This document shows, one piece after another, positions 34,746 through 49,590 of a stretch of 64,000 nucleotides of DNA. The notes under the pieces were generated by a model. It worked only from the letters and a program-made list of their open reading frames with translations. It had not been told where the DNA came from and did not search any database. The stretch is taken from positions 1 to 64,000 of the forward strand of contig NZ_QANS01000008.1 of the NCBI RefSeq assembly GCF_003052265.1, read 5' to 3'. This DNA comes from Stenotrophobium rhamnosiphilum (GTDB lineage Bacteria > Pseudomonadota > Gammaproteobacteria > Nevskiales > Nevskiaceae). How positions within the stretch are numbered: the stretch's first letter is position 1; every line of letters begins with the position of its first letter. A program made the translations under genes and the position numbers.

Positions 34746-35843
34746 ATGAGCAAACCTTACATTCACTACGCTTGGCACCTGTCGTATTTCAGCGGCAAGT
34801 CGCGCAGCTATCTGCTCTACAAAGACATTCCGCATGTAGAGAAGGCGATCGACTTCTACACCTTCAGCGTGCGCGCCAAAAAGAAAACCAATGCGGCGGT
34901 GATGCCGATTGTGGTGACGCCAGAAGGCGAATGGCTGCAAGACACCAGTCACATCATTGATCAACTGGAGCAGCGATTCCCGACTGCGCCTGTTGTGCCG
35001 ACAACACCGGTGCAGCGCATTGCGTCCTACCTGATGGAAATGTGGGGAGATGAATGGTGGTTGGTGGTGGCGATGTACACGCGCTGGTTTCATTCAGAAA
35101 ACTACGTGGTTTTTCAGCGCGATGCGGGCCGTGGTTTGCTGCCCTACTTTCCGAGCTTCATTCAGAACAAAGTCGCGGCCAAAGCGGCGAATCAGATGCG
35201 TGGACATTTACCTTCGCTCGGCCTAGTGCCGGGACCGCAGATTGATCTCATCGCAAAGTGGACGCGTGACACGCTGGATCTACTCGACGCGCACTTCGCA
35301 AAACATAAATTCTTATTCGGCGACAAACCTTCCATCGGCGATTTCGGTTTGATCGGCCCGCTCTACGCCCACTTGGGTCGCGACCCTTGGAGTAAGCGTG
35401 AGTTGATTGATCCGCGTCCCAATGTGCGTGCTTGGGTTGATCGCATGAACAAACCGAAGCCACTGTCTGGTGCGTTTCTGCCGCAGGATCAAATTCCAGA
35501 AACATTGACACCGATTTTCCAAACGATGTTCAGTGAATTTCTGCCAATGATTGAAGCCATTCTGGCTGAAGTAAAAGCTGCATTGCCCAAATGCGCGCCG
35601 GGCAAATCATTGCCACGTGGCTTGGGCGAAGTGGAATTTCCGATGGGCAACGGTCGTTATCGTCGTGCAGCGATTCCGTACATCGTGTGGATGACGCAGC
35701 GAATTCTCGATGTCTATCACAGCATGAACTCGCGCGACCAAGCGAGCGTACGCGCATGGCTCACGGGATTAGGCGGAGAAGCTTTACTCGACATGGAGAT
35801 TCCGCGTTTGCGCCGCGTTGGACTTCGTGTGGCGGCGGCATAA
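34746..35843 (+). CDS. Long GST-like protein with C-terminal extension
   Basis: A 365-residue protein whose first 80 residues resemble a GST thioredoxin domain (YIHYAWHLSYFSGKSRSYLL, then a cis-Pro-like region VMPIVVTPEGEW). A helical GST C-terminal domain with the N-cap motif GDKPSIGDFGL follows near residue 195. About 130 further residues have no recognised match. I chose the ATG at 34746, with GGGGGA just upstream, over one five codons earlier. It is related to the 392-residue protein at 46520, and the two bracket the cluster. Glutathione-dependent modification of a hydrophobic substrate is inferred. Confidence 0.82.
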   Translation: MSKPYIHYAWHLSYFSGKSRSYLLYKDIPHVEKAIDFYTFSVRAKKKTNAAVMPIVVTPEGEWLQDTSHIIDQLEQRFPTAPVVPTTPVQRIASYLMEMWGDEWWLVVAMYTRWFHSENYVVFQRDAGRGLLPYFPSFIQNKVAAKAANQMRGHLPSLGLVPGPQIDLIAKWTRDTLDLLDAHFAKHKFLFGDKPSIGDFGLIGPLYAHLGRDPWSKRELIDPRPNVRAWVDRMNKPKPLSGAFLPQDQIPETLTPIFQTMFSEFLPMIEAILAEVKAALPKCAPGKSLPRGLGEVEFPMGNGRYRRAAIPYIVWMTQRILDVYHSMNSRDQASVRAWLTGLGGEALLDMEIPRLRRVGLRVAAA

Positions 35844-35986
35844 GCAAAGCGATAAATCCAATTCCTCACAGCTATAAGCTAAGAAAACCGATGCTGAGGT
35901 CGTAACAAACCAAGTCTCGCGCAATAAAATTTAAAAGATAAATCATGACCGCCACAGGCGGCAGATAATGGCAGGGAGAGAAGCTG

Positions 35987-38083
35987 ATGACTCGTTTTGC
36001 ACTAACTCGTATCGTGTGGCTTGCTGCTGCAATGGTCAGCGTTTCAGCGCAGGCACAAGACCTCAAATACGAGATCGGCGAATTGCAAATGGGGTTCACG
36101 GCGAGCGTCACTTCCGGCATCGCGATACGCACACAAGATCGCAATCTCAATCTTATCGGCAAGCTCAACGTACCGGGCCAGCAAAATCTTTGCACCGCAG
36201 ACGATTGCATGTCGCTCTCCGGCGATCCTGCACCAAATCTTCGTCTGGTGAATGCCAAAGGTTCGTATAGCGGCGGCAACACGGACAACGGCAATCTCAA
36301 CTACGACAAATACGACATCGTTCAAGCCTCAACGCGCCTGACGCCGACGCTGGCTTTTTCTTACGGCGACTGGAGCGGCAGAGTCCGCGGCATTTTGTTT
36401 TACGACCCGGTTAACGACGGCTTCGAAGAAACCCACCCCAACACGCGCTTCCAACCCGCACACACCAAACGACCAGACGGAGTGTCAGGTCGCTTTGCAC
36501 GCGGCGGGCAATTGCGTGATGCCTATATCTCCAACGTGCTTCATGTTGCCGATCGCGACGTCACGATTACCTTTGGCAATCAGCGTCTGACCTGGGGCGA
36601 ATCATTCTTAACGCCGCTGAACACGCTCAACACACTGGGCCCACCAGATGCCGTGCTCGCACGCATGCCGGGCTTTGAACTTCGCGAACTTTATCGCGCA
36701 GTACCCGCACTCTCGATCGCCACAGAAATTGTCGACGGGCTTTCAGCAGATGTGTTTTATCAATGGCGCTGGAACCCAGCGAATGCGGAACCTGTCGGCA
36801 GCTTTTTCTCGACCAATGATTTCATTGGTGGCGGTCACTACATCACGCTGGGCTTAGGCCAATATGCGGAAGACCCAGACAGAAAATTCCGTCCAGCAGG
36901 TATCAGCGGCCAGATCAGCCATTCTTCCCGCACCATTGAGTTGCTGTCAGAAAACTACGGCCGTCCAAAAAACGGCGGGCAGTACGGCATCCAGCTCAAG
37001 TATTACGCCGACAGCTTGTTCGGCGGCACCGAACTCGGCGCCTACTACGCCAACTATCACAGCCGCCTGCCACATATTTCTGTGATCAGCGCGAATGCCT
37101 CATGCACGCGCCAAGGACAAGCGGGCAGTTTCGTATCAGCGCTTGCGGTGTGTCAGGGTTTCAAGATTAATCCAAATGGCCTCGAACCCGTGCCGACCGA
37201 CTCGATGAAAGCCTTCCTCGATTATCCAGAAGACATTCACATGCTCGGCCTGAGCTTCAGCTCCAACCTCGGCCCGTTCTCGCTCTCGGGTGAATATGCC
37301 TATCGCCCGAATATGCCTTTGCAGGTTCATGCAACGGATGTGATTTACGCAGGCCTTGCACCGGCGTTTCCAGAAGAAGACATCAATATTCCTGCGGATC
37401 TCTCGATTCTCGGACTCGATTCGCCTTTCACAATTCCCGGCCACCGCCACATCGCACCAGATTTCTTGAGCGTGTATCGCGGCATGGGCACGACAGGTTA
37501 TGGCCCCAATCAAGTCATCCGCGGTTACGAGCGTTTCAAAGTAGGACAGTTCTCGCTTCTCGGCATTCACGTGTTCGGCCCCAACGATAACTACATTGGC
37601 GCGGATCAACTTCAGTTCTTGTTAGAAGTCAGCGGCACGCAAATTTTTGGTCTGCCAGAACTCAGCGAGCTACAACTTGAAGGCACTGGCAATCGCTCGC
37701 ATTACAGCGAAGGCGCTGATGGCACCGGCTCGCCAACAGGACAAGTCGATTCTCTGCACATCAATCCAACGCAACAGAAAGATGGCGCAGCAACCTCGTT
37801 CTCCTACGGCTATCGCGTTGCGCTCAAAGGCCAATACAGCCGCGCCATTGGCGATATCAGTCTGTATCCAACGATCTTGTGGTTCCACGATCTCGGCGGC
37901 ATTTCGCCTGCGACGATTGATAACTACGTAGCTGGACGCCAACAACTCAGCGCTCAGCTCGATGCCGAAATCACCCAAAGCATCGGTGCGGGCATGCAGT
38001 ACCAGATCTTTACCGGTGGCGGTCGTAATAACCAACGCAGCGACCGCGACAACCTTGGCATGTACGTGCGTTACAGCTTCTAA
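35987..38083 (+). CDS. DUF1302 family outer-membrane protein
   Basis: The 698-residue product has a signal peptide (ending SVSAQAQD, about residue 24). A long beta-rich region starts with the DUF1302 pattern FTASVTSGIAIRTQDRNLNLIG and ends with a terminal Phe (YVRYSF), the barrel signature. DUF1302 proteins are linked in several proteobacteria to degradation or uptake of aromatic or steroid compounds, often with DUF1329 and RND transporters. Neither partner is visible here. A ribosome-binding site GGGAG lies 8 nt before the ATG. The position directly downstream of the GST-like gene suggests it is the outer-membrane entry for the cluster substrate. Confidence 0.85.
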   Translation: MTRFALTRIVWLAAAMVSVSAQAQDLKYEIGELQMGFTASVTSGIAIRTQDRNLNLIGKLNVPGQQNLCTADDCMSLSGDPAPNLRLVNAKGSYSGGNTDNGNLNYDKYDIVQASTRLTPTLAFSYGDWSGRVRGILFYDPVNDGFEETHPNTRFQPAHTKRPDGVSGRFARGGQLRDAYISNVLHVADRDVTITFGNQRLTWGESFLTPLNTLNTLGPPDAVLARMPGFELRELYRAVPALSIATEIVDGLSADVFYQWRWNPANAEPVGSFFSTNDFIGGGHYITLGLGQYAEDPDRKFRPAGISGQISHSSRTIELLSENYGRPKNGGQYGIQLKYYADSLFGGTELGAYYANYHSRLPHISVISANASCTRQGQAGSFVSALAVCQGFKINPNGLEPVPTDSMKAFLDYPEDIHMLGLSFSSNLGPFSLSGEYAYRPNMPLQVHATDVIYAGLAPAFPEEDINIPADLSILGLDSPFTIPGHRHIAPDFLSVYRGMGTTGYGPNQVIRGYERFKVGQFSLLGIHVFGPNDNYIGADQLQFLLEVSGTQIFGLPELSELQLEGTGNRSHYSEGADGTGSPTGQVDSLHINPTQQKDGAATSFSYGYRVALKGQYSRAIGDISLYPTILWFHDLGGISPATIDNYVAGRQQLSAQLDAEITQSIGAGMQYQIFTGGGRNNQRSDRDNLGMYVRYSF

Positions 38084-38195
38084 ATCGTACTCATCGCGAC
38101 GGTTGTCCTGCGATGCATAAGTAATGTCCGGCGCGGCATAGACCGTTCGTCCACGCAGGACTAGCGTGTGATACCGATAAGACGAGGAGAAAATA

Positions 38196-38879
38196 ATGTC
38201 AGCGGTGACCGAATATCTGCGGCGTGCTGTTGCACCACGTCTGGTGGTGGGCTTGTCGCGTAAGCGTGGCTTGCAGCAATTGCGCGCTGCATTTCGACGT
38301 GCCTTGGGACTGCGGACAAATATCGAACTCTTCTTTGCGTTTGATGATCCTTATGCCGCGATTGCGCTGCCCGGCCTGATCGAAATCGCTGCCGCACACA
38401 ATGCAAAGCTGAATCTACTCCCGCTGATCGCGCGTGGCATTGATGGTGATCCTGCCGCCACTCAACGCAGCGTGCACGCCATCACGGATAGCCGCCGACT
38501 GGCACAACGCAATGGCCGCACATTAGCTCGTAACACACCACTCGCGGCAGAAGATTGTGCATTTCTTGCCGCTTGGACTATCGCAGCAGCGCAACATCCA
38601 AACCTGAATAGCTTTGTTGCCGACGCACTGGCACAACTCTGGTTCGGCTCCGACGCACTTCCAAGCGCAGATACTTACGCTGCGATTTATCAGCAACACA
38701 TCGGCGCCCTGCCTCCGGCGGTAACAGCAGAACATCGCGCATCGCTCGCCAGCAATACGGCGCTTCTGAAAAAACTAGGCCATTGGGAATCACCCGCCGC
38801 ACGCGTTGCTGGCGAGTGGTACTTCGCGCATGAGCGTCTTGTACAAATTGATGCGCATCTGCGCGCACTGGGTGCTTAA
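38196..38879 (+). CDS. Divergent DsbA/HCCA-isomerase-like protein
   Basis: A 227-residue protein with no signal peptide. Its core begins IELFFAFDDPYAAIALPGLI, which lines up with LEYFFSFRSPYSYISGPRAF at the start of the next gene's product, so the two look like ancient tandem paralogues. The catalytic Ser of the HCCA/GST-kappa active site (FRSPYSY) is replaced (FDDPYAA), and the cis-Pro loop near the end is weak. It may bind rather than transform substrate. The GAGGAG ribosome-binding site is good, and the next start is 3 bp away. Confidence 0.72.
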   Translation: MSAVTEYLRRAVAPRLVVGLSRKRGLQQLRAAFRRALGLRTNIELFFAFDDPYAAIALPGLIEIAAAHNAKLNLLPLIARGIDGDPAATQRSVHAITDSRRLAQRNGRTLARNTPLAAEDCAFLAAWTIAAAQHPNLNSFVADALAQLWFGSDALPSADTYAAIYQQHIGALPPAVTAEHRASLASNTALLKKLGHWESPAARVAGEWYFAHERLVQIDAHLRALGA

Positions 38880-38882
38880 GCC

Positions 38883-39494
38883 ATGCGCGATACGCTCGAA
38901 TATTTTTTCTCTTTCCGCAGCCCTTATTCCTACATCTCCGGGCCACGCGCATTTGATCTGGCCAAGCGTTACAACATTGAATTGGTCTGGCGCGGCGTTC
39001 GCCCGATGGCGATGCGTGGCCAACCTCTGCCACGCAGCAAACAGTTTTACATCTTGCGTGACACCGCACGCGAAGCGGATCGCCTCGGCATGCCTTTCGG
39101 CAAGATTCATGATCCGCTTGGCGAAGGTGTATGGCGCTGTCTGACGATTGCTGAACTCGCCAAGGCTCAGGGTCGCCTATCTGAGTTTGTACTCGCTGCC
39201 AGTCGCGCCAGCTGGGCCGAAGGCATTGATGTGAATCTTGATGCGCCGCTGCGTGCGATCTGCGAGAAAGTCGGCCTCAATTGGAATGACTGCGTTGCCG
39301 CGATTGCTAACGCCGAATTCCGTCAACGCGTCGAAGAAAACACCGCGCGTCTCTCGCAACTCGGACAGTGGGGCGTTCCCACATTCCTGTTCCGCGGCGA
39401 AGCCTTCTGGGGCCAGGACCGCATTCAAGATCTTGAAGCCGTACTCACTGCCGCCGGTTTGGCTGCGCCTAACGCAGGAACCATCGCCAAATGA
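38883..39494 (+). CDS. 2-hydroxychromene-2-carboxylate isomerase-like (DsbA/GST-kappa family)
   Basis: A 203-residue thioredoxin-fold protein with FRSPYSYI at the N-terminus (Ser in place of the CxxC of DsbA), the cis-Pro loop WGVPTFLFRGEAFWGQDRI near residue 170, and a helical insert between them. These are the marks of the HCCA isomerase/GST-kappa branch, whose members use glutathione to isomerise products of aromatic ring cleavage. It follows its divergent paralogue by 3 bp and its stop overlaps the next start (ATGA at 39491-39494). A role in aromatic or polycyclic degradation is inference. Confidence 0.87.
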   Translation: MRDTLEYFFSFRSPYSYISGPRAFDLAKRYNIELVWRGVRPMAMRGQPLPRSKQFYILRDTAREADRLGMPFGKIHDPLGEGVWRCLTIAELAKAQGRLSEFVLAASRASWAEGIDVNLDAPLRAICEKVGLNWNDCVAAIANAEFRQRVEENTARLSQLGQWGVPTFLFRGEAFWGQDRIQDLEAVLTAAGLAAPNAGTIAK

Positions 39495-40543
39495 AACGCT
39501 CCCACTTCATCCTGATTGCACTTGTCGTTATCGCTGGCGCGATTTACGCCCAGCGTGGCCCACTGCTCGAAAGAATTATCACGCGACAAATTGATAAAAC
39601 GCTGCAGCGTGTCGACAACAGCCTGATGACCGACGGCAAGCTGCACGTGATTCTCTGCGGCACCGCTGCGGCATTGCCAGACCCAGATCGCGCTGGCCCT
39701 TGCACAGCCATCATTGCTGGCGATCAATTCTGGTTGGTGGATGTAGGCCCCAGTTCATGGCGCAATGTGGATCAGTTGAACCTGCCGATCTCTAAACTCA
39801 GCGGCGTGCTGATCACGCATTTCCATTCGGATCACATTAATGATCTCGGCGAAGCCATCACACAAAGCTGGATTGCAGGACGCAGCAAACCGCTGGATGT
39901 TTACGGCCCGCAAGGCATTAGCGATGTGGTCGGCGGATTCCAAAAAGCCTTCTCCCATGACAAGCAATATCGCGTCGATCATCACGGCGCCGATTACATG
40001 CCGCCGTCAGGCGCAGAAGCCGTGGCACACGCACTTCCCACGCCGAAAGGGATTGAAGCCGAGCCTGTACTTGAACCGAACGGGCTCAAGATCAGCGTGT
40101 TCCGCGTCGATCACGCACCAATTGATATTGCCTTTGGTTACCGCTTTGAATATCGCGGCCGCAGCGTCGTCATCAGCGGTGACACCAAAAAGACAGAATC
40201 GGTCATCCACAACGCAAAAGATGCTGATCTGCTGATTCACGAAGCCTTGGCCTCGCACATGACCAAGCGCGCGACAGCCAGAGCCAAGGAACTTGGCATT
40301 ACTCGCATCGCCAAACTTGCAGACGATGTGCGCAACTATCACGCCACACCAGTAGAAGCCGCAGAAGTCGCCGAAGCGGCGCATGCGAAGAAGCTCGTGC
40401 TGACTCACATCTTTCCGCCACTCGCCAATGGAGTGGCACGCCACTTGTTCTTGCAAGGCACCAGCGATGCTTACAAAGGTCCGATCATTCTCGGCGCTGA
40501 TGGCACCCGCATTGATATCGACACTCAAGGAGCAAACCCATGA
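39491..40543 (+). CDS. Metallo-beta-lactamase fold hydrolase, membrane-anchored or exported
   Basis: A 350-residue protein with an N-terminal hydrophobic segment (residues 5-20, FILIALVVIAGAIYA) that is either a signal peptide or an anchor. The MBL fold follows. The zinc motif THFHSDHINDLGE (about residue 115), the GDT loop in VVISGDTKKTES, and the final His in VLTHIFPP are all present, resembling the RNase Z/arylsulfatase-like branch. Four-base overlaps with both neighbours (39491-39494 and 40540-40543) show tight coupling. As it is likely periplasmic, a small-molecule ester or sulfate-ester hydrolase is more likely than tRNA processing. Confidence 0.87.
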   Translation: MKRSHFILIALVVIAGAIYAQRGPLLERIITRQIDKTLQRVDNSLMTDGKLHVILCGTAAALPDPDRAGPCTAIIAGDQFWLVDVGPSSWRNVDQLNLPISKLSGVLITHFHSDHINDLGEAITQSWIAGRSKPLDVYGPQGISDVVGGFQKAFSHDKQYRVDHHGADYMPPSGAEAVAHALPTPKGIEAEPVLEPNGLKISVFRVDHAPIDIAFGYRFEYRGRSVVISGDTKKTESVIHNAKDADLLIHEALASHMTKRATARAKELGITRIAKLADDVRNYHATPVEAAEVAEAAHAKKLVLTHIFPPLANGVARHLFLQGTSDAYKGPIILGADGTRIDIDTQGANP

Positions 40544-42297
40544 AAAAAAAAACCAATCAGACCGATCCTAGTCGTCGTCGCGTTCTAAAAGCGATCAGCG
40601 TCGGCGGCGCAGCACTAGCCGCTGGCGGCGTCATGAACAGCAATGTTTTTGGTGCTCAGGCGCCAACGATTGTTAAACGCAAACGTCCCAACATTCTGCT
40701 GATCATGTCGGATCAGGAACGTGGCTGGGCAGATCTGCCATCCAACCTTGGCCTCAACGCGCACGAGTGGTTGATGGAGCGCGGCGTTCATCTCGAGAAT
40801 TTCAACGTCAACACCACGCCCTGCTCGCCATCACGCTCCAACATCTACACCGGCCAGCACACGCAGCTGACCAAGATGACGACTAACGTTGGCGCACCGC
40901 CGTTCCCTGAACTGGCAACGGATGTTCCAACCATTGGCCACATGCTACGCAAGGAAGGCTATTACACCGCTTACAAAGGCAAATGGCATTTGTCCGATAT
41001 CTCATCGGAAGATCGCGTGCGCTATGGCCACAACAAGAGTTCACGCGATGCGTTGGAGCCTTATGGCTTCTCCGATAACAGCGATTACACGATTGCCGAC
41101 GGCGCAACGTGGAGCGGCTATCGTCTTGACGGCCAGGTTGCATCCGAAGCCAGTCAATGGCTGAGCGAACAAGGCACGACCGTGAAGAACCCTTGGTTCC
41201 TCGCCGTAAACTTTGTGAATCCGCATGACATCGTTTTTTTCGATGACGTCGACCACCAACAATCACGCACGCGTCTTGATCGCGATTTTCTATCGCCGCT
41301 GTTGCCGCCGCCGGTTAATGGCCTCTACGCCAAGTATTGGGACGTGCCGATGCCCAAGAGTTTTTATGCCGACGACTTGAGCGGCAAACCTTGGGCGCAA
41401 ACTTCTTACGTTGATTTCTGCAATGCCTGCTACGGCAAACTCGACCCCAAGGACGAACGCCGCTGGCGCAAGTATCAGAGCTATTACTTCAACTGCATCC
41501 GCGATGTCGACTCGCATGTGTTGACGGTTCTGCAAACGCTGGAGAACCTCAAGCTCGATCGCGAAACCATCATCATCTACACCGCTGATCATGGCGACAT
41601 GCTGGGCGCACACCAGCTGCGTCAGAAAGGGCCGTTCATGTACAAAGAGAACGTGCGCGTGCCGTTCTTCGTGGCGCATCCGGATGTACGTGGCGGCACC
41701 ACTTCGCAATCACTCGGTAGCGCGATTGATATCGCGCCGACCATTCTCGGCTTCGCTGGCGTCAAAGATTCTGAGCGTGCTGAACGCTATCCCGCACTCA
41801 AGGGCGTCAACCTTGCGCCAGTCATTCAGGATCCCAAGGCGCGTACTGCGCGTGATACCAAGGGCCATCTCTACGATTACAACAGCACACTTTATGTTGA
41901 TCCAGACACCGCCAAGGCGCTGATGATCAATAAAGAAAATGCGACCTTCTGGAATCTGCTCAAGCACAACTTGGCGCGTGGCAACCTTGGCCCTGTGATG
42001 ACGCATCCCGGTTTGTTCCGCGGCGTGTTCGATGGTCGCTACAAACTGGCGCGCTACTTTGCGCCGAATAGCCATCACATTCCGAAGGATTGGGACACGC
42101 TGCTCAAACACAATCAGCTGGAGCTTTACGACACGCTAAATGATCCGAACGAGATCGTGAATCTTGCCGCCAAGCCTGAGCAGCACAAGGAACTGATCTT
42201 GTCGCTCAATAAAAAGATCAATGCACTGATCATGGATGAGATTGGCTTTGACGATGGCCGCGAGCACGCGGGTCCAACGTTCTTGTACCAACTCTGA
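40540..42297 (+). CDS. Tat-exported Cys-type sulfatase
   Basis: Type I sulfatase that hydrolyses sulfate esters using formylglycine. The 585-residue protein has a twin-arginine signal (DPSRRRVLKAISVGGAAL). The alkaline-phosphatase-fold start is RPNILLIMSDQERGW, and the maturation motif is PCSPSRSNIYTG with Cys95. The metal-binding ADHGDMLGAH appears later, near residue 350. A Cys at the modification site means an FGE-type or AtsB-type maturase is required before export, and none is encoded in this window. The start overlaps the MBL gene by 4 bp, and the parvulin-like gene follows after 8 bp. Confidence 0.92.
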   Translation: MKKKTNQTDPSRRRVLKAISVGGAALAAGGVMNSNVFGAQAPTIVKRKRPNILLIMSDQERGWADLPSNLGLNAHEWLMERGVHLENFNVNTTPCSPSRSNIYTGQHTQLTKMTTNVGAPPFPELATDVPTIGHMLRKEGYYTAYKGKWHLSDISSEDRVRYGHNKSSRDALEPYGFSDNSDYTIADGATWSGYRLDGQVASEASQWLSEQGTTVKNPWFLAVNFVNPHDIVFFDDVDHQQSRTRLDRDFLSPLLPPPVNGLYAKYWDVPMPKSFYADDLSGKPWAQTSYVDFCNACYGKLDPKDERRWRKYQSYYFNCIRDVDSHVLTVLQTLENLKLDRETIIIYTADHGDMLGAHQLRQKGPFMYKENVRVPFFVAHPDVRGGTTSQSLGSAIDIAPTILGFAGVKDSERAERYPALKGVNLAPVIQDPKARTARDTKGHLYDYNSTLYVDPDTAKALMINKENATFWNLLKHNLARGNLGPVMTHPGLFRGVFDGRYKLARYFAPNSHHIPKDWDTLLKHNQLELYDTLNDPNEIVNLAAKPEQHKELILSLNKKINALIMDEIGFDDGREHAGPTFLYQL

Positions 42298-42305
42298 AGT
42301 CATTC

Positions 42306-43145
42306 ATGGCTAACGCACGTCGCACCGTAACGTTTAGCGCGATCTCCTTTGTCGCAGGTATTGGGCTCACGCTGGGCTGGGTGCGCACGCATGAGCCAGC
42401 ACCGGCGGTGACAGAAGTCAGCAACATTATTGCGATTGCGCCACCACTGAAAGCCACCTTAGAAAAAGCTGACGCATTGCAACGCTGGATCGACAACGAA
42501 ATTCTATTTCGCGAAGCCCTCAAGCGCGGTTATGCCTTGGATGATTTGATCGTGCGCAATCAATTGCAGCAGCGCATCCGTCAGGCGATTCAGCATGAGT
42601 CGTCTCAGGCGCACCCGAGCTATGCACAGCTACAGACTTTCTTGCAGCAGAACCTCACGCTGTACCAGAGCAAGCCACGTTGGAGCTTTGAGCAGATTTA
42701 TCTCAGCCGCGGCGCTCATGGTGATCGTCTGGTGACAGATGCGGCCGCTATCGCTGCGCAGCTACAAAAATCAGCTGAAGATAAAAATCTAGGCGATCCA
42801 TTTCCAGCAGGTCGCGTTATCAGTAATGCGCCCGCTGTAGCGATCACCCGTGATTTCGGATCGGCTTTTACACAACAACTCTCCAGCTTGCCGCTGAATA
42901 GTTGGCAGGGCCCGATTGAATCATCGCTGGGCCTGCACTTTGTCCGTGTAACGGCGATGCAGCCCGGACGCCCAATGGCATTCGAAGAAATCCGTACACG
43001 TCTCGTCATCGATTGGCGCGAAGCGCAAAAGCAACAAGCATTAGAACTGGTGCTGACCGATCTTCGGCCGCGCTACAAAGTGGCCTCTCGCGTCGGCGAC
43101 ACAACAACGCCGATGCACGATATCCACGAAGAGGAAACACCGTGA
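42306..43145 (+). CDS. Parvulin-like peptidyl-prolyl isomerase, membrane-anchored
   Basis: A 279-residue protein with an N-terminal anchor (about residues 8-25), a SurA/PpiD-like helical chaperone region, and a C-terminal parvulin-like domain. Recognisable parvulin features include the PLNSWQGPIESSLGLHFVRV segment near residue 205. It should fold exported partners in the periplasm, and its placement between the sulfatase and the DUF3604 lipoprotein suggests a dedicated foldase for one of them. The GTG start of the next gene overlaps its TGA stop (GTGA at 43142-43145). Confidence 0.8.
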   Translation: MANARRTVTFSAISFVAGIGLTLGWVRTHEPAPAVTEVSNIIAIAPPLKATLEKADALQRWIDNEILFREALKRGYALDDLIVRNQLQQRIRQAIQHESSQAHPSYAQLQTFLQQNLTLYQSKPRWSFEQIYLSRGAHGDRLVTDAAAIAAQLQKSAEDKNLGDPFPAGRVISNAPAVAITRDFGSAFTQQLSSLPLNSWQGPIESSLGLHFVRVTAMQPGRPMAFEEIRTRLVIDWREAQKQQALELVLTDLRPRYKVASRVGDTTTPMHDIHEEETP

Positions 43146-45406
43146 CCTTCAAACATCTCTCGGCGCTAGCGCTGCTTGCGTTGCTTGCGGCCTGTAGCCG
43201 CAGCTCGTCGCCAGACACTGCGGCCGGCGGCAACAGCGGCACGCCGTTCAACGAAAAGGTGGATTGCACCGGCACACAAGCTGATCGCAAGAATGCTTAC
43301 TTTGGTGATCTGCACGTTCACACGCTTTATTCCGTCGACGCATATTTCTTCAACGGCCTCAATGGTCCGCGCGAAGCGTTTCGCATTGGCAAAGGCGAAG
43401 TTGGAAATCTGCCTACTGGCGAGACTGACGCCTACACCGCTGGACGCACCATTCAGTTGGATCGCCCTTTGGATTTTGCAGCAACCAGCGATCACTCTGA
43501 CTTTCTCGGCAACTGGCGTTTGCTGTGCCAAGTCAATGGCACGCTACCGATTGGCGTGAATCCCGCCTGCAATCTGGTTGGCGATTATCTGCGTCAGAAC
43601 ATCACCACCATCATTAACGGCGGTCAGCCACCTGCATTTACTGCACTCACCGCTGGCGTCAGCGAACTGCCGACGACCGCGTCGCCGTGGCAAGACGAGC
43701 TGCGTATTTCCGATGAAGAGAATGTGCCTTGCACGTTCAGCACCTTTGTCGGCTACGAGTGGACCTCGCAGAAGTTCGATCAAATGATTCATCGCAACGT
43801 CTATTACACCGGCAGCAATCTGCCGCAAGACGTGCCACATGTTGCAACGCTTGAAGACCTTATCGCGATAGCGACAGGCCAAGGAACGTCGAGCAATATG
43901 AACGACGACTGGCGTCTCTACGATTATCTGGAACAGAACTGCGACCCTGCGCAAGGCTGCAAGAGCATCGCGATTCCGCACAATCCGAATCAGAGTAGCG
44001 GCGGCATGTATCTGGCGCGCGATCCTGCGACGGGCTTGCCACCGGGCCGTGATGGGGCACCGCTGACTTTGGCTGATGCCAAGCTGCGCGCGAAGTACGA
44101 CAACGTCATCGAAATCTTTCAGCACAAGGGAAATTCCGAATGCGCTGTAGGCCTCGGCCCTTACGAAACCAAGTTTGATCCAGCCTGTACGCTCGAGTTG
44201 GCGAAGAATGTTTGCGTTGGCTCTCCGCAAGATCCGCCGGAATGTAAGAAGGTTTGTACCGGCAATCCCGCAACCGATCCGGACTTCTGCTCGCTCACTA
44301 CTGTTGCAACCGGCGTGTGCGAACAAGCGGGCCGTGACGGCACATCAGGCCCTGTGCACAAATGCGTCGCACCACTCGACATGGCGCGCAACATTCTTGC
44401 TGACGGTCTCGCGATTCGCGACACGCTTGGCGTGAATCCGATGCGCATGGGTTTCATCGGCTCATCCGATACGCACAACGGCGATCCTGGCAATGTCGGC
44501 GAAAACGGATTCCCCGGCCACGGTGGCGTGCTCGACAACGGCCCACGCACGCAGCTCGGTTACTGGACTTGCGATGGTCAGAATCAAGATCCAACCAATC
44601 CCGCGAATTGCAGCAACCGCCAGTTCCTAGATCGCGCACGCTTGTTTAATCCCGGCGGTCTCGCCGGTGCATGGGCACCCGAGAACACTCGCGAAGCCAT
44701 TTGGAGCGCGATGAAGCGTGGCGAAACTTTTGCAACATCGGGTCCGCGTATTCGCATTCGTACCTTGGCGATGTGGACCAAACCGCCAGCTGATATCTGC
44801 GATCAACTTTCGGCAGGACACAATCCCGTCGACGCGGGCGAGATCGCAGGCGCGGTGATGGGCGGCAACTTGCCTGACAACCCAACGCCTGCAGCGCCTT
44901 ATATCGTGGTGTGGGCGCAGCAAGATCCGGGCGGCGCAACACCGGGGCTGCCACTACAGAAACTCGATCTGATTAAAGGCTGGAGCGATGCGAGCGGTCA
45001 ACCGCACGTCAAAGTGTTTGATGCGATCGCTAAAACTTCTTCGAAGGTTTCGATGCCATCAAGCGCGGACTGCAGTGTGAAACCTGCGGGCCATCCGGAG
45101 CGTTTATGCACGGTTTGGCGCGATCCAAAGTTCAATCCACGCGAGCAGGCTTATTACTACGCACGCGCTTTTGAGATCCCGAGCTGCCGTTGGAGCACAC
45201 GCCTCTGCACCAAGAACAACGTCGATTGTTCCAAGCTCGACCCCGCCAATGGCATATTCCCAGCCGACAGCGGCATGCAAGGCTTTGAAGGTTGCTGCGG
45301 CATCACTGGAACAGTGGGCAGCTTTAGCGGACGCAATAGGTTCAGTACGATTACGGAACGCGCTTGGGCCTCACCTGTTTGGTTTGTGCCGAAAGCCCAG
45401 CCTTAA
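43142..45406 (+). CDS. DUF3604 (PHP-like) lipoprotein
   Basis: A 754-residue exported protein with lipobox LLAAC (Cys at about residue 17). The DUF3604 domain starts with the metal-binding AYFGDLHVHTLYSVDA (H-x-H, as in PHP phosphoesterases). It continues with ATSDHSDFLG and a later GFIGSSDTHNGDPG, further His/Asp ligands. The region at about residues 330-405 contains many cysteines (at least nine), perhaps disulfide-bonded. The GTG start at 43142 overlaps the preceding stop. The catalysed reaction is not known. A metal-dependent hydrolase acting on an envelope-accessible substrate is the best reading. Confidence 0.88.
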   Translation: MTFKHLSALALLALLAACSRSSSPDTAAGGNSGTPFNEKVDCTGTQADRKNAYFGDLHVHTLYSVDAYFFNGLNGPREAFRIGKGEVGNLPTGETDAYTAGRTIQLDRPLDFAATSDHSDFLGNWRLLCQVNGTLPIGVNPACNLVGDYLRQNITTIINGGQPPAFTALTAGVSELPTTASPWQDELRISDEENVPCTFSTFVGYEWTSQKFDQMIHRNVYYTGSNLPQDVPHVATLEDLIAIATGQGTSSNMNDDWRLYDYLEQNCDPAQGCKSIAIPHNPNQSSGGMYLARDPATGLPPGRDGAPLTLADAKLRAKYDNVIEIFQHKGNSECAVGLGPYETKFDPACTLELAKNVCVGSPQDPPECKKVCTGNPATDPDFCSLTTVATGVCEQAGRDGTSGPVHKCVAPLDMARNILADGLAIRDTLGVNPMRMGFIGSSDTHNGDPGNVGENGFPGHGGVLDNGPRTQLGYWTCDGQNQDPTNPANCSNRQFLDRARLFNPGGLAGAWAPENTREAIWSAMKRGETFATSGPRIRIRTLAMWTKPPADICDQLSAGHNPVDAGEIAGAVMGGNLPDNPTPAAPYIVVWAQQDPGGATPGLPLQKLDLIKGWSDASGQPHVKVFDAIAKTSSKVSMPSSADCSVKPAGHPERLCTVWRDPKFNPREQAYYYARAFEIPSCRWSTRLCTKNNVDCSKLDPANGIFPADSGMQGFEGCCGITGTVGSFSGRNRFSTITERAWASPVWFVPKAQP

Positions 45407-45436
45407 ACTCACAATTTCATAACAAGGACGAAATCA

Positions 45437-45709
45437 ATGCAAAACAAGAAATCTTTTTGGGGCGTACAGATGGCACTCATCAGCCTCGTCTACATTTTCG
45501 CAGCGTTTAAAGCATTGAGCGGTGATTTCTCTCATCCGACTGTGCTGATCTCTGCGCTTCTGCTCGCTGCGCATGCGCTTGAAATCCCCGTTGCGTTCTA
45601 CGCATTGAAAGGCCGCTCGGCTTCTGTGCCACGCGTTCTGCTTCTGTGCCTGCTGTTTGGATTGGTCTGGTGGGTTCCGGCGCGCCGCGGCGTGTTCGCG
45701 GTCAATTAA
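45437..45709 (+). CDS. Small membrane protein, three helices
   Basis: I do not recognise a family with confidence. The 90-residue product has three hydrophobic stretches (about 8-26, 33-52 and 63-83). In length and topology it resembles the DUF1145 type of small membrane protein, but this is weak. The ribosome-binding site AAGGACG lies 8-9 nt before the ATG. The next gene starts 2 bp after its stop, so it belongs to the same transcript. Confidence 0.68.
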   Translation: MQNKKSFWGVQMALISLVYIFAAFKALSGDFSHPTVLISALLLAAHALEIPVAFYALKGRSASVPRVLLLCLLFGLVWWVPARRGVFAVN

Positions 45710-45711
45710 GA

Positions 45712-46515
45712 ATGAAATCGTTCAAAAATAAAGTCGCGCTAATTACCGGCGCCAGCAGCGGCATTGGCGAATCCATCGCGTTGGCACTCGCAGCAGAAGG
45801 CGCCAAGCTTGAACTGGTCGCACGCGATCGTGAACGTCTTGAGCATGTGCGCGATCTTTGCGTGGCCAAAGGCGTTGAAGTGCATCTGCACTTTGCCGAT
45901 GTTGCTGACGAAGCGCAGATGAACAAGGTGGCAGACGACGTGCACGCACGTCACGCCGCGATTGATGTGCTGGTCAATAACGCCGGCGTTGTCATGGGCG
46001 GCTTCACTTGGGAAGTCGAAACCGCGGATTGGCGCAGACTGCACGACGTCAACGTGATGGGCGTAGTGCATGGCATCCGCGCTTTCCTGCCGCAGATGAT
46101 CGAGCGTCGTCAAGGTGGCCATGTCGTCAACATCTCCTCGGTATCGGGTTTGGTTGGCGTGCGCGGAATGGGCACTTACAGCGCCAGCAAGTTCGCGGTG
46201 GTGGGCTTGTCAGAATCACTGCGCATGGAAATGCACCGATTCAACATCGGCGTCAGCGTGATCTGTCCGGGCTATGTGAAAACGCCGATTCAGAGCAAAG
46301 TGAAAATGGTCGGCACACTATCGAGCCCTGATGCACGTGCTCGCGTTGAGAAAGAATTTTCGAAGACAAATCTGATGCCAGAGACTGTTGCACAGCGCAC
46401 GCTGCAAGCGATTCGCCGCAACGAGTTCATCGCATCAATCGGTCGCGAAGCCGTGATGGTGCGCATCTTCAAGCGTTGGGCACCAGGCCTGCTCGAACGC
46501 TCGCTACGAGGCTAA
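45712..46515 (+). CDS. Short-chain dehydrogenase/reductase
   Basis: A 267-residue NAD(P)-dependent oxidoreductase of the classical SDR type. Cofactor motif ALITGASSGIGESIA is at the N-terminus, NNAGV follows, and the catalytic Ser/Tyr/Lys are in NISSVSGL and YSASKFAVVG. The substrate is not predictable, but C-terminal length and the absence of a KR-type signature suggest alcohol/ketone interconversion on a hydrophobic compound. I chose the ATG at 45712, since an upstream in-frame start would overlap the membrane protein gene. It is followed 4 bp later by the second long GST-like gene. Confidence 0.92.
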   Translation: MKSFKNKVALITGASSGIGESIALALAAEGAKLELVARDRERLEHVRDLCVAKGVEVHLHFADVADEAQMNKVADDVHARHAAIDVLVNNAGVVMGGFTWEVETADWRRLHDVNVMGVVHGIRAFLPQMIERRQGGHVVNISSVSGLVGVRGMGTYSASKFAVVGLSESLRMEMHRFNIGVSVICPGYVKTPIQSKVKMVGTLSSPDARARVEKEFSKTNLMPETVAQRTLQAIRRNEFIASIGREAVMVRIFKRWAPGLLERSLRG

Positions 46516-46519
46516 AACG

Positions 46520-47698
46520 ATGGCTTCGCCGTACACGCTCTATGTTTTTCACATTTCCTACTTCAGCGGAAAGATGCAGGCCTACCTGCGTTACAAGGAG
46601 ATTGCGCACGAGACCATAGAGCCCAAGTGGGGCGGCGATCTGCTCAATACCATTTACCCGAATACCGGTTTGATGAAAGTACCGGTGGTGAAGACGCCTG
46701 CTGGTGAATGGCTCGCGGATTCGACGCCGATGATTGATTGGTTCGAAGCCAAGCATCCACAAGGCGCTGTGATTCCAAGCGATCCTCTGCAAGTTTTCTT
46801 CAGCCGCCTGCTGGAAGACTATGCCGACGAATGGCTGTGGCGCCCTGCGCTGCACTATCGCTGGAGTTACGCCACTGATGCACACGCCGCATCACGTCGC
46901 TTCGCCGAAACATTCATGAGCACGCAGCCTATGCCCAAGGCGATGACGGCCGCTACGCTGCGTGAACGCCAGCATCGTATTTATGTTGCAGGCGATGGAG
47001 TCACCGAAGACACCTGGGCGCATGTGGAGTCGGTTTATTTAAATACGCTGGATCGTCTGCAAGCGATCTTTGAGAAGCAGCCCTTTCTGCTTGGCGGCAA
47101 ACCGAGTCTTGCTGATTTTGGTTTCTTCGCTTCCATGTTCCGCCACTTCAGTCTCGACCCCACACCGAGCCTGATCATGCAGGAGCGCGCACCAGCCGTA
47201 TTCGAATGGGTGGCACGCCTTTGGAACAGCCGTCATTCCACCAATACAGGAGCTTGGGCAGAAGCCGGAACTTTGCCTAGCGGATGGACGCCGATTCTTC
47301 GCGACATTGGCGAGGCGTATCTCCCGTACCTGCACGCCAATGCTGTGGCGTGGCGCGAAGGCCGTAAGACTTTCGACTTTGAAGTGCAAGGCGTGCAGTA
47401 CAAGAAGTTGCCAGTAGTTCAATACCGCGTCTGGTGCCGCGAGCGTCTGCAAGAACATTTGGCCGCTGTGCCGGAAGCCTCTCCCGCCGCAGTCGAAAAT
47501 ATTCTGCGCGATGCAGGTGCATTGGAGCCGCTGATGCGTGATGGCCACATTGCATCCAATTTGCATACGGCAGATGCGCCGCCGTTATGCCGACCACGCA
47601 AAGTCGCGCTGGGTGACAAGCTCTCGCGTTATCTCATCGGTACGCATTGGCATGCACCGAAGGCCACGCTACAGGCTGGCCAAAAGAAGTCCTCATGA
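46520..47698 (+). CDS. Long GST-like protein, second copy
   Basis: A 392-residue relative of the product at 34746. Both start with a (Y)xxHxSYFSGK pattern, here YVFHISYFSGKMQAYL. They share the TPAGEW/TPEGEW turn and have the helical N-cap GGKPSLADFGFF. The C-terminal 150 residues extend beyond a normal GST, with no recognised domain. The HisxSer pattern near the N-terminus might be functional, since neither protein keeps a clear catalytic Cys. Function is inferred to be glutathione-linked. The SdsA-like gene follows after 52 bp. Confidence 0.8.
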   Translation: MASPYTLYVFHISYFSGKMQAYLRYKEIAHETIEPKWGGDLLNTIYPNTGLMKVPVVKTPAGEWLADSTPMIDWFEAKHPQGAVIPSDPLQVFFSRLLEDYADEWLWRPALHYRWSYATDAHAASRRFAETFMSTQPMPKAMTAATLRERQHRIYVAGDGVTEDTWAHVESVYLNTLDRLQAIFEKQPFLLGGKPSLADFGFFASMFRHFSLDPTPSLIMQERAPAVFEWVARLWNSRHSTNTGAWAEAGTLPSGWTPILRDIGEAYLPYLHANAVAWREGRKTFDFEVQGVQYKKLPVVQYRVWCRERLQEHLAAVPEASPAAVENILRDAGALEPLMRDGHIASNLHTADAPPLCRPRKVALGDKLSRYLIGTHWHAPKATLQAGQKKSS

Positions 47699-47750
47699 TT
47701 TTTTGCGCGCTCTGAAACGTGCAGCGCTCACGCTTACGGAATCTTTTTCC

Positions 47751-49490
47751 ATGCTTCGATACGCACGCTTTGTTTTAACCAGCTGCCTCACTGCAGCATT
47801 AGTGATCGCCGCTGGCTGCGGGCGCACATCCTCCTCAGCGCCCGCTGAAGCCACCGCACCAACGCCGCAAGCACTGATTGCGCATAGCGAAGAATTCAAG
47901 CGCGGCGTTGAGAAGGTCACCGAAGGCGTTTATGTCGCGATGGGCTTTGGCATCGCCAATTCGATCATGTTGGTTGGCACTGACGGCATCATCATTGTCG
48001 ACACCACCGAAACCGTCGAAGCCGCACGCGAAGTGCTGGCCGAGTTCCGCAAGATCACCGACAAACCCGTGAAGGCGATTGTCTACACGCACTCGCATCC
48101 GGATCACATTGGTGGCGCTTCAGTCTTTGCCAATAGCGCGAACGTGCCGATCTACGCGCAAGAAGATGTCGCAAAGAACATGGACAAGCTCGCCACCGAA
48201 CTGCGCCCCATCATCACGCAGCGCTCGATGCGCATGTACGGCACTCAGCTCACGCCGGAGCAACGGCCGAACATTGGTGTGGGCGGTTATCTGGCGGTGA
48301 ATGCAGACAGCACGTTCGGCGTGATTCGTCCAACCAAAACTTTCCGCGATACGCTGGAAGACACCGTTGCGGGCGTTCACTTTCAACTCGTACATGCACC
48401 GGGCGAGACCGACGATCATTTGTTTGTGTGGCTGCCTGAGAGCAAGGTGCTGCTGCCCGGCGACAACATCTACAAATCATTTCCGAATCTCTACACCATC
48501 CGCGGCACGGGATATCGCAGTCCGAAAGCTTGGGCGGCGTCTGTCGACAAGATGCGCGCGCTGCATGCCGAAATTCTGGTGCCGAGTCATTCTCGTCCTT
48601 TGATTGGCGCTGCAAAGATTGATGCAATCCTGACTGACTATCGCGATGCGATTCGCTATGTCTACGATCAAAGTATTCGCTTGATGAACCAAGGATTGGT
48701 GCCAGACCAAATCGCCGCGCGCATTCGCTTGCCTGCGCATCTAGCTCAGTCTCCTTACCTGCAAGAGTTTTACGGCAAGGCCACGTGGAGTGCGAAAACT
48801 GTTTTCGACGGCAACCTCGGTTGGTTTGATGGCGACCCAGCGCATCTGCAACCACTGCCGCCTGAGGATGAAGCGCAGCGCATGGTTGCACTGGCTGGTG
48901 GCGCTGCCGCGCTCGACGACAAGATTGAAGCCGCAGCGAAAAGTGGTGATACGCAGTGGGCGCTGCAGCTCACGGGCTACGCCTTGCGTGTCAACGCAGA
49001 TGATAAGCGCGCCAAGCAAGTGCGTATCGATGCGCTGCGCAAACTGGGCTACGCAGAAACCAATGCGCCCGCGCGTGACTACTACTTGATGTCCGCAGGC
49101 GAACTCGCAGGTGAGTTCAGACCGATTGAAGAAGCAGCCAAGCCGACGCCTGCGATGCTGGCTGAGATGCCGATGTCGCTGTACTTCGACGGCATGGCGG
49201 TGAATCTGCATGCAGAAGATTGCCTCGATAAAGTCATCAAGGTTGGTTTTGATTTCACCGATAGCAAAGAGCAATACACCTACATCGTGCGCCGCGGCGT
49301 CTCTGAAGTTATCAAAGGTATCGCGCCAGATGCCGACATCGTTGCGCGTGTGCCTGCGCAAACGTTCAAGGAAAGTCTGGCCAAGCTGCGTAATCCGGCG
49401 ATCACCATGGTCAAGGATGTTGAAGTGACCAAGGAAAGCAAACTGGAGTTCTTAAGCTTCATGGCCTTGTTCAAGCCGCCGAATCAATAG
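47751..49490 (+). CDS. SdsA-like MBL alkylsulfatase lipoprotein
   Basis: Predicted type III sulfatase that hydrolyses alkyl sulfates by a zinc mechanism. The 579-residue protein has a lipobox AAGC (Cys at about residue 23), then the MBL motif YTHSHPDHIGGA near residue 115. Next come APGETDDHLFVW and GDNIYKSF, a helical dimerisation domain (about 360-440), and a C-terminal SCP2-like lipid-binding domain (about 470-575) as in Pseudomonas SdsA1. Start chosen at ATG 47751, where the signal peptide begins. It is last in the cluster, before a repeat and a terminator. The paired Cys-type sulfatase at 40540 makes sulfate-ester catabolism a plausible theme. Confidence 0.9.
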   Translation: MLRYARFVLTSCLTAALVIAAGCGRTSSSAPAEATAPTPQALIAHSEEFKRGVEKVTEGVYVAMGFGIANSIMLVGTDGIIIVDTTETVEAAREVLAEFRKITDKPVKAIVYTHSHPDHIGGASVFANSANVPIYAQEDVAKNMDKLATELRPIITQRSMRMYGTQLTPEQRPNIGVGGYLAVNADSTFGVIRPTKTFRDTLEDTVAGVHFQLVHAPGETDDHLFVWLPESKVLLPGDNIYKSFPNLYTIRGTGYRSPKAWAASVDKMRALHAEILVPSHSRPLIGAAKIDAILTDYRDAIRYVYDQSIRLMNQGLVPDQIAARIRLPAHLAQSPYLQEFYGKATWSAKTVFDGNLGWFDGDPAHLQPLPPEDEAQRMVALAGGAAALDDKIEAAAKSGDTQWALQLTGYALRVNADDKRAKQVRIDALRKLGYAETNAPARDYYLMSAGELAGEFRPIEEAAKPTPAMLAEMPMSLYFDGMAVNLHAEDCLDKVIKVGFDFTDSKEQYTYIVRRGVSEVIKGIAPDADIVARVPAQTFKESLAKLRNPAITMVKDVEVTKESKLEFLSFMALFKPPNQ

Positions 49491-49499
49491 TGAACCAAC

Positions 49500-49560
49500 G
49501 TAGGAGCGCCTCTTAGGCGCGATGGCTTTTGTGCCAATCGCGCCTAAGAGGCGCTCCTAC
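49500..49560. repeat. Intergenic inverted repeat (24-bp arms)
   Basis: Positions 49500-49523 are exactly complementary to 49537-49560, with a 13-bp spacer. The arms begin GTAGGAGCGCC, a head typical of a repeat family common between genes in gammaproteobacteria. It lies just after the last cluster gene and just before a terminator. Confidence 0.9.
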
Positions 49561-49563
49561 AGA

Positions 49564-49590
49564 AAAATGCCCTCTTCGCGAGGGCATTTT
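49564..49590 (+). terminator. Intrinsic terminator ending the accessory cluster
   Basis: An 11-bp stem (AAAATGCCCTC at 49564-49574, complement at 49580-49590) has a TTCGC loop and ends in a T run. It closes the transcript that ends with the SdsA-like gene. Confidence 0.85.

Follow-up and report, generated by a model that had tools for sequence, protein, structure and literature searches.

The isoprene (isoGHIJ) and styrene (StyI/StyJ) degradation pathways are among the described systems closest to the locus reported here, since in each of them two glutathione transferases (GSTs) and a short-chain dehydrogenase/reductase (SDR) are encoded in one cluster. The lignin beta-etherase module (LigE/LigF) also combines GSTs with an SDR, which in that case is LigD. 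In the IsoI-IsoH-IsoJ sequence, according to PMC10057887, a GST opens an epoxide, the resulting conjugate is oxidized by an SDR, and the removal of glutathione is a step predicted for a second GST. We compared these systems with a run of 12 genes, all on the forward strand, between positions 34746 and 49490 of a 64,000-nucleotide stretch of Stenotrophobium rhamnosiphilum DNA (RefSeq assembly GCF_003052265.1, contig NZ_QANS01000008.1, positions 1 to 64,000; G000:C14 in our numbering), hereafter the window. The host genome measures 3.96 Mb and is 99.7% complete. Like the isoprene and styrene clusters, the run encodes two GSTs and an SDR, but its GSTs are about 150 residues longer, and it adds exported hydrolases without counterpart in those pathways. 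We put at about one in two the probability that it encodes a catabolic route that depends on glutathione and consumes a hydrophobic compound of electrophilic character, which some lineages would also desulfate.

An earlier note on this DNA, made from the sequence without database searches, knew of no described system with the full gene set. Open-access papers offered none either, a description of a gene cluster joining an HCCA (2-hydroxychromene-2-carboxylate) isomerase, a GST, and a sulfatase being sought there and not found; as far as those papers show, the set appears to be undescribed.

Conservation of the gene run

Genes of the run (Table 1) recur together in relatives; below, G numbers denote genomes and L numbers loci. 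Across the 58 genomes of our Nevskiaceae sample, a relative of the DUF3604 protein was found in 29 and a relative of the second GST (GST2) in 36, weak ones included. For the 22 highest-scoring DUF3604 positions (at least 322 bits, with GST places taken at E <= 1e-29 and lower-scoring rows omitted), a long GST was no more than 20 kb away, start to start, in 18 cases, compared with 0.27 expected by chance; G049 was narrowly inside the limit at 19.9 kb. The corresponding P of 3e-32 overstates the evidence because related genomes are counted as independent. The exceptions were G045, where the GST is 32 kb off, G009 and G004, both on short contigs, and the second copy in G056. More independent support for the linkage comes from two genomes outside the family, in which the gene orders are DUF3604-PpiC-HupE-MBL-GST2-TetR (G082; MBL, metallo-beta-lactamase fold) and sulfatase-PpiC-HupE-DUF3604-alpha/beta hydrolase-MBL (G095, where the sulfatase scores just 48 bits to that of the window). 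The gene run is real; chance assembly, which we considered, is ruled out by the linkage counts. The earlier note had offered rare co-occurrence in neighborhood searches as grounds for abandoning its proposal, and the genes do co-occur across genomes.

Within the family the locus takes two layouts around a common core, which is the DUF1302 protein, the HCCA-isomerase-like pair (split or fused), the RNase Z-like MBL protein, the parvulin, the DUF3604 protein, the SDR, and the long GSTs. Layout A consists of an AraC-type regulator, the split HCCA-like pair, MBL, sulfatase, PpiC, HupE in some, DUF3604, a small open reading frame (ORF), SDR, the GSTs, and an SdsA-like gene, and it was found, complete or partial, in the window, G057 (without the sulfatase), G019, G013, G022 (cut by the contig), G037, G005, and G025 (no PpiC or DUF3604 seen). 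G045 is a hybrid of the layouts. Layout B (G049, G051, G048, G042, G033, G052, G056, G053, and G001) has long GSTs, DUF1302 (joined by DUF1329 in some), an SDR in most, an MBL gene in some, a fused HCCA-like gene in most, and a PpiC-HupE-DUF3604 set that may be single or double, with neither a close sulfatase nor an SdsA-like gene within the stretch fetched; three layout-B loci carry a P450 family gene. Genes in relatives were called with a codon-bias script that performed poorly on G013 and G009. Carriers of the locus include two cultured strains, Solimonas aquatica DSM 25927 and Hydrocarboniphaga daqingensis CGMCC 1.7049; a Nevskia metagenome-assembled genome (MAG) is a further relative.

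The methyltransferase and pseudouridine synthase genes that lie 3' of the window cluster (49664 and 50719; together 49664-51435) also flank the locus in G051 and G048. Because this flank is common to both layouts, it suggests one ancestral chromosomal site. The same flank stands at L074 7719-9478 and L075 11400-13186.

A HupE/UreJ gene separates PpiC from DUF3604 in G057, G037, G005, and every layout-B locus on a contig long enough to include that position. There is no space for it in the window, G019, G013, and G045, and no HupE/UreJ gene was found in the whole host genome. HupE/UreJ is a usual partner that has been lost from this host, a point that the earlier note missed and that is new to the present analysis. 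The HupE matches in PMC11446756 were to an author's name. A family of lipoproteins of about 470 amino acids also recurs in and around the loci (L063 14191-15585, L082 4630-6108, L173, and L170), and the member scanned has no Pfam match.

Beyond the family, close DUF3604 proteins are rare, occurring in 4 of the 274 genomes of an even class sample (E <= 1e-100, the host counted in both numbers); the one in G286 sits on a 4-kb contig whose neighborhood is uninformative. GST2 relatives are spread broadly: among their best 80 loci, 8 hold a DUF3604-like gene, namely the Nevskiaceae loci L083-L087 and L091 and the deltaproteobacterial/Myxococcales MAGs L112 and L151. Since GST2 relatives are so widespread, a long GST alone is no marker of the locus. 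Several of these more distant loci reassemble parts of the set. In the alphaproteobacterial L106, a sulfatase homologue (613 bits) is accompanied by a fused HCCA-like gene, a haloalkane dehalogenase (469 bits against a cutoff of 265), a DUF1330 gene, and a long GST. L110 has a fused HCCA-like gene, a GST, a dehalogenase (436 bits), and GST2, and L150 and L154 each have an SDR, GST2, MBL, two acyl coenzyme A (acyl-CoA) dehydrogenase-cluster genes (both Pfam confirmed in L154), and a fused HCCA-like gene. Five alpha/beta hydrolases lie near GST2 or DUF3604 loci; the two in L106 and L110 are dehalogenases over the cutoff, and those of L092, L117, and G095 fall under it. A distinct conserved GST2 neighborhood was seen in L134, L136, L141, and L144 (Myxococcota/Deltaproteobacteria), with two acyl-CoA dehydrogenase-cluster genes, a 571-amino-acid member of a flavin adenine dinucleotide-linked oxidase family, and an SDR.

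The HCCA-isomerase-like pair

The protein encoded at 38883-39494 belongs to the DsbA fold family and has an SPYSY motif, as in HCCA isomerases and kappa-class GSTs; the SPY serine is catalytic in the HCCA isomerase family. Its upstream neighbor, orf227, has no Pfam match and carries Asp in place of the SPY serine in 9 of 9 rows, so that fold and intact motif coincide in the second protein only. When the orf227 family profile was compared with the fused proteins, the N-terminal half scored above the C-terminal half both in layout B (65.6 against 46.8) and in eight fused proteins outside the family (107.6 against 70.5). The profile of the 38883-39494 protein behaved in the opposite way, with 274 (layout B) and 322 (outside the family) for C-terminal halves and 39 and 135 for N-terminal halves. 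Single-sequence matches of orf227 were mixed, since in layout B its match to the N-terminal half stayed below 15 bits and the C-terminal half was higher in seven of eight, while outside the family the N-terminal half was higher in seven of eight. As the profile comparison favors the N-terminal half in both sets, we predict that orf227 corresponds, in degenerate form, to the N-terminal half of a two-domain HCCA-isomerase-like protein whose halves are fused in other loci. The split pair, missed by the earlier note, is new here. A degenerate partner, in place of which layout B and other loci have a single fused chain, sets it apart from HCCA isomerases and kappa-class GSTs.

The DUF3604 protein

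The model of the DUF3604 protein (mean predicted local distance difference test score [pLDDT], 69) aligned best with PHP phosphoesterases, giving a Z score of 14.7 over 228 residues at 3.5 A with 3e38 and 14.6 over 206 residues at 3.4 A with 2anu. Seven PHP entries head the structural list, and the next rows, of other folds, reach Z 6.4; a plain Foldseek search of the same model gave an E value of only 1.8e-3. The PHP superfamily has a list of four metal-binding motifs, and metal-type His and Asp residues of the corresponding HxH, DH, PH, and DxH motifs are invariant in 17 aligned DUF3604 rows. On the model and these four motifs, the protein is predicted to have a PHP phosphoesterase fold, an assignment that escaped the earlier note and is new here. 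Unlike the PHP phosphoesterases, it is an exported lipoprotein (by eye) of about 750 residues, with many conserved cysteines and long insertions. DUF3604 is scarcely named in the open-access literature, the mention found being in a Chlamydia transposon study.

Sulfatase and SdsA-like protein

The Cys-type sulfatase shares with type I formylglycine sulfatases the PF00884 domain and the C-x-P-S-R motif, present as CSPSR in the window protein and throughout the alignment (11 of 11 rows from 7 other genomes or loci, four of which contribute two rows each); its other sulfatase motifs are intact as well. The host genome encodes a formylglycine-generating enzyme (FGE)-like protein, a candidate maturase, at C18 (PF03781, 237.7 bits), with a GGSYLC...YC motif that we take to be diagnostic of FGE; it matched no curated FGE model. 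What distinguishes the window protein from the type I enzymes is that it falls under the cutoff of every curated sulfatase model listed, choline sulfatase for example. Close relatives are present in 7 of the 58 family genomes, host included (the other six at 65 to 71% identity), and adjoin genes of the locus in all seven. Two more family genomes have remote sulfatases at 35 to 38% identity, and no close one was found in the other 273 class genomes at E <= 1e-120. The gene is missing from the locus of G057, a member of the same genus, and from the nine layout-B loci, in which much of the core is retained. The Cys-type enzyme is thus no part of the shared core and is accessory to the locus.

The SdsA-like protein has the three-domain layout and HxHxDH motif of the type III alkylsulfatases SdsA1, SdsAP, and Pisa1. 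PMC5426288 gives as the mark of that type Glu or Asp for the B1 His ligand and Glu for the B1 Cys ligand; there, a glutamate beside the zinc ions is unique to the three alkylsulfatases compared, with Asp at the first site in one of the three. The window protein, a lipoprotein by eye, differs in having His and Asp at the two glutamate ligands, and its relatives in seven other layout-A genomes have Gln and Asp. With both defining glutamates replaced, SdsA-type membership was rejected, though the protein could still cleave some ester. Of the 58 genomes, 27 have the gene; 8 carry it within the locus and 19 elsewhere, and among these 19 are genomes without the locus. One copy in G056 is separated by 18 kb from the second DUF3604 gene of that genome. 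Comamonadaceae homologues keep both glutamates. In L128, L133, and L140 (Comamonadaceae/Comamonas), a GST2 relative stands directly 3' of an SdsA-like gene with both canonical glutamates, which may be a true alkylsulfatase-GST pair.

Glutathione transferases

The model of GST2 is confident (pLDDT 90), and its residues 1 to 240 form a GST. Among solved structures StyI, from the glutathione pathway for styrene, ranks first (Z 18.4 over 227 residues at 3.0 A), in a tie with 4kf9 (18.1) and prostaglandin E synthase 2 (17.9), both less than 1 Z behind. LigF is also among the structural matches, with a Z of 15.3, and the last 150 or so residues are barely matched by the solved structures compared.

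In a FastTree phylogeny of 127 long GSTs (L083-L087 and L091, second copies of family loci, were left out, as were proteins outside 280 to 480 amino acids, including the G057 GST1), the window GST1 falls within the layout-B GST1 clade with a support of 0.999. Other layout-A loci have, adjoining GST2, a GST that belongs to a clade of its own (1.0), and this clade joins the layout-B GST1 clade at 0.673. The window GST2 lies in the layout-A clade (1.0), and layout-A and layout-B GST2 are not sisters, though the deep supports, 0.55 to 0.92, are modest. The simplest explanation would be that GSTs were exchanged, or independently recruited, into one functional slot. A further long GST, of another clade, is encoded outside the locus in both genomes of the genus (G000:C15:783815-784798, L181 9795-10811; G057:C5, L182 10025-11020), adjoined in each by large unidentified genes.

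Gene layout in the window

The one-strand order and the starts that overlap stops at 39491, 40540, and 43142, both reported in the earlier note, were seen again by direct reading, the overlaps (39491/39494, 40540/40543, and 43142/43145, the last with a GTG start) being 4 bp each. The same note placed gaps of 2 to 8 bp elsewhere from 38196 to 47698. This agrees with the 3 bp between orf227 and the HCCA-like gene, 8 bp between sulfatase and parvulin, 2 bp between the small ORF and the SDR, and 4 bp between the SDR and GST2, but not with the 30 bp between DUF3604 and the 90-amino-acid membrane ORF, which had been overlooked. Gaps are wider after GST1 (143 bp), after DUF1302 (112 bp), and from GST2 to the SdsA-like gene (52 bp), so that tight coupling is limited to 38196-47698. 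ATG 34746 seems to fit the GST1 start in relatives better than 34731.

A promoter scan listed 5 sites against a shuffle mean of 8.3 and a terminator scan 14 against 20.4. With neither above its shuffles, a single transcript is something we infer. The terminator proposed earlier for the 3' end is present as a hairpin by direct reading but was not among the sites listed by the terminator scan. Between the SdsA-like gene and the hairpin is a near-perfect long inverted repeat at 49500-49560 (GTAGGAGCGCCTCTTAGGCGCGAT ... ATCGCGCCTAAGAGGCGCTCCTAC), presumably of the repetitive extragenic palindromic type; its end motif has no further copy in the window.

Table 1. Genes and other features at the locus, in window coordinates
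Feature	Position	Strand	Evidence
Divergent AraC-type regulator (Arabinose_bd + HTH_18)	33618..34634	-	Pfam
GST1, long glutathione transferase	34746..35843	+	Pfam; in layout-B GST1 clade
DUF1302 protein	35987..38083	+	PF06980, 458.6 bits (cutoff 23.2)
orf227, predicted degenerate N-terminal half of two-domain HCCA-isomerase/DsbA-like protein	38196..38879	+	Family-profile comparison
HCCA-isomerase/DsbA-like protein, C-terminal half of pair	38883..39494	+	DsbA, 88 bits; FSFRSPYSY motif
Metallo-beta-lactamase-fold hydrolase, RNase Z-like, N-terminal anchor	39491..40543	+	HxHxDH, further His/Asp motifs
Tat-exported type I (Cys/formylglycine) sulfatase	40540..42297	+	PF00884, 143 bits; CSPSR motif
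PpiC-type (parvulin) peptidyl-prolyl isomerase, N-terminal anchor	42306..43145	+	
DUF3604 lipoprotein, GTG start, predicted PHP-type fold	43142..45406	+	390.4 bits; lipobox LAAC (by eye)
90-amino-acid membrane protein without Pfam family	45437..45709	+	Homologues at same place in G037, G022, G025
Classical SDR	45712..46515	+	TGASSGIG, NNAG, YSASK
GST2, long glutathione transferase, C-terminal extension of about 150 amino acids	46520..47698	+	
SdsA-like lipoprotein (MBL + alkyl-sulfatase dimerization + C-terminal domain)	47751..49490	+	PF00753, PF14863 (dimerization, 148.3 bits), PF14864; noncanonical metal ligands
Terminator-like hairpin, AAAATGCCCTC-TTCG-CGAGGGCATTTT	49564..49590	+	Direct reading

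The AraC-type regulator proposed at the head of the run was found there, and a relative stands at the same cluster border in G019, G013, G037, and G025. Pfam scores upheld the family calls made from the sequence for DUF1302, DUF3604, the sulfatase, the alkyl-sulfatase dimerization domain, and DsbA. Exported and cytoplasmic products could likewise be told apart, as the earlier note held, by lipoboxes, a twin-arginine translocation (Tat) motif, and N-terminal anchors, all read by eye, and on these marks 7 of the 12 gene products appear to be exported or anchored in a membrane. The MBL hydrolase scores 155.4 bits, below the RNase Z cutoff of 363. We take DUF1302 to be a family associated with the outer membrane or uptake, with a steroid or aromatic link. 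Apart from the locus, the host genome of about 4 Mb holds 17 DUF1329 genes over the cutoff on many contigs (L193-L200), seemingly a large number.

Discussion

This comparison shows which genes are present and in what order, that their linkage and their motifs are conserved, and which folds are predicted for them; the route that we favor would have two stages. Outside the cytoplasm, the DUF1302 protein would handle or admit the compound, and the Tat sulfatase, the PHP-fold DUF3604 protein (folded with the help of its own parvulin), and the two MBL-fold proteins would hydrolyze ester groups off it. In the cytoplasm, a long GST would add glutathione to an electrophilic carbon, such as an epoxide, enone, or halide, the SDR would then oxidize the conjugate, and the second GST and the HCCA-like pair would isomerize it or remove glutathione, as proposed for isoprene and styrene. 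The AraC protein would control the locus.

Several lines of evidence count toward this glutathione-dependent route: the linkage within the family and in G082 and G095, the gene content of L106, L110, and L150/L154, the P450 and DUF1329 genes, the StyI match of GST2, the IsoI/IsoH/IsoJ precedent, and a gshB-type gene in the host genome. Dehalogenases, alpha/beta hydrolases, P450, and acyl-CoA dehydrogenases near related loci fit electrophile chemistry followed by degradation.

Other results weigh against it. Although both GSTs score best with IsoI among curated models, GST1 reaches 36.4 bits and GST2 33.3 against its cutoff of 300, and against the beta-etherase cutoff of 440 they reach 22.4 and 24.8, which also separates them from the lignin module that the LigF match and the SDR recall. 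With scores so far below IsoI-type models, the locus may work like the isoprene and styrene pathways, by analogy and without membership. A Pfam scan confined to the 19 proteins of 30143-53548 revealed neither a monooxygenase nor a CoA transferase nor an aldehyde dehydrogenase, and here too the cluster departs from those pathways. Among the best 80 GST2-related loci, 71 lack any gene resembling DUF3604, PpiC, or HupE within the retrieved stretch. Finally, the haloalkane dehalogenase of the L106-type family, considered as a member of the Nevskiaceae pathway and rejected, is absent from the host genome and does not track the locus, being present in 16 of 58 genomes and, among nine layout-A or hybrid genomes, in G025 only.

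The earlier note proposed instead a pathway devoted to one sulfated or surfactant-like substrate, from which two sulfatase chemistries would first strip the sulfate. Part of this stands. The sulfatase has an intact CSPSR motif and, by eye, a Tat signal, the genome offers an FGE-like protein, the close sulfatase adjoins locus genes wherever it occurs, and in L106 its homologue adjoins HCCA-like and GST2 genes; sulfatase-superfamily genes are found in the G095 and L149 loci as well. The theme of two chemistries is not supported, given an SdsA-like protein that lacks both diagnostic glutamates and has its homologues elsewhere in 19 of 27 genomes, and a Cys-type sulfatase that is often missing while much of the core is kept. 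We therefore regard a pathway defined by sulfate removal as possible but rather unlikely.

The locus might also make or remodel an envelope lipid of the cell's own, with the lipoproteins, parvulin, and HupE as envelope factors and the SDR and GSTs modifying a precursor. The number of exported or membrane-bound products would suit such a role, as would the saccharopine-dehydrogenase-like gene of the G042 layout-B locus and the SDRs with other motifs in layout B. The AraC/TetR regulators, DUF1302/DUF1329, and the P450, haloalkane dehalogenase, and acyl-CoA dehydrogenase genes of relatives nevertheless point to catabolism, and the patchy spread of DUF3604 relatives, in half of the family genomes, suits an optional pathway, so that a biosynthetic role is doubtful.

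A bolder version of the glutathione-dependent route is a long shot: a previously undescribed pathway that would consume halide- or epoxide-bearing sulfated lipids, for example the chlorosulfolipids of freshwater algae, in which DUF3604 would represent a new class of PHP-type ester hydrolases that act after export, and the two HCCA-like proteins would form an obligate heterodimer, the one subunit active and the other degenerate. It was suggested by L106, which unites a sulfatase homologue, a haloalkane dehalogenase, a fused HCCA-like protein, and a long GST. The host genome lacks such a dehalogenase, the substrate is a guess, and the word chlorosulfolipid is absent among the matches listed from the open-access literature. 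Very improbable, too, is a detoxification or stress island in which GSTs and hydrolases guard against hydrophobic toxicants and feed no carbon to metabolism, for although several GST paralogues stand together with MBL hydrolases and the genome has the gshB-type gene, an uptake-type DUF1302 protein, an SDR, and an operon of such length and conserved order would exceed what detoxification needs.

These comparisons already alter how some of the genes should be read. The label "SdsA-type sulfatase" can fail at the active site, and DUF3604 gains a predicted fold, four conserved metal motifs, frequent partners in the parvulin and HupE, and a likely metabolic setting. Because S. aquatica DSM 25927 and H. 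daqingensis CGMCC 1.7049 carry the locus, substrate screens are feasible. If the glutathione-dependent route is correct, a conserved gene set of the Nevskiaceae would break down a lipophilic natural compound with hydrolases outside the cytoplasm and glutathione enzymes inside.

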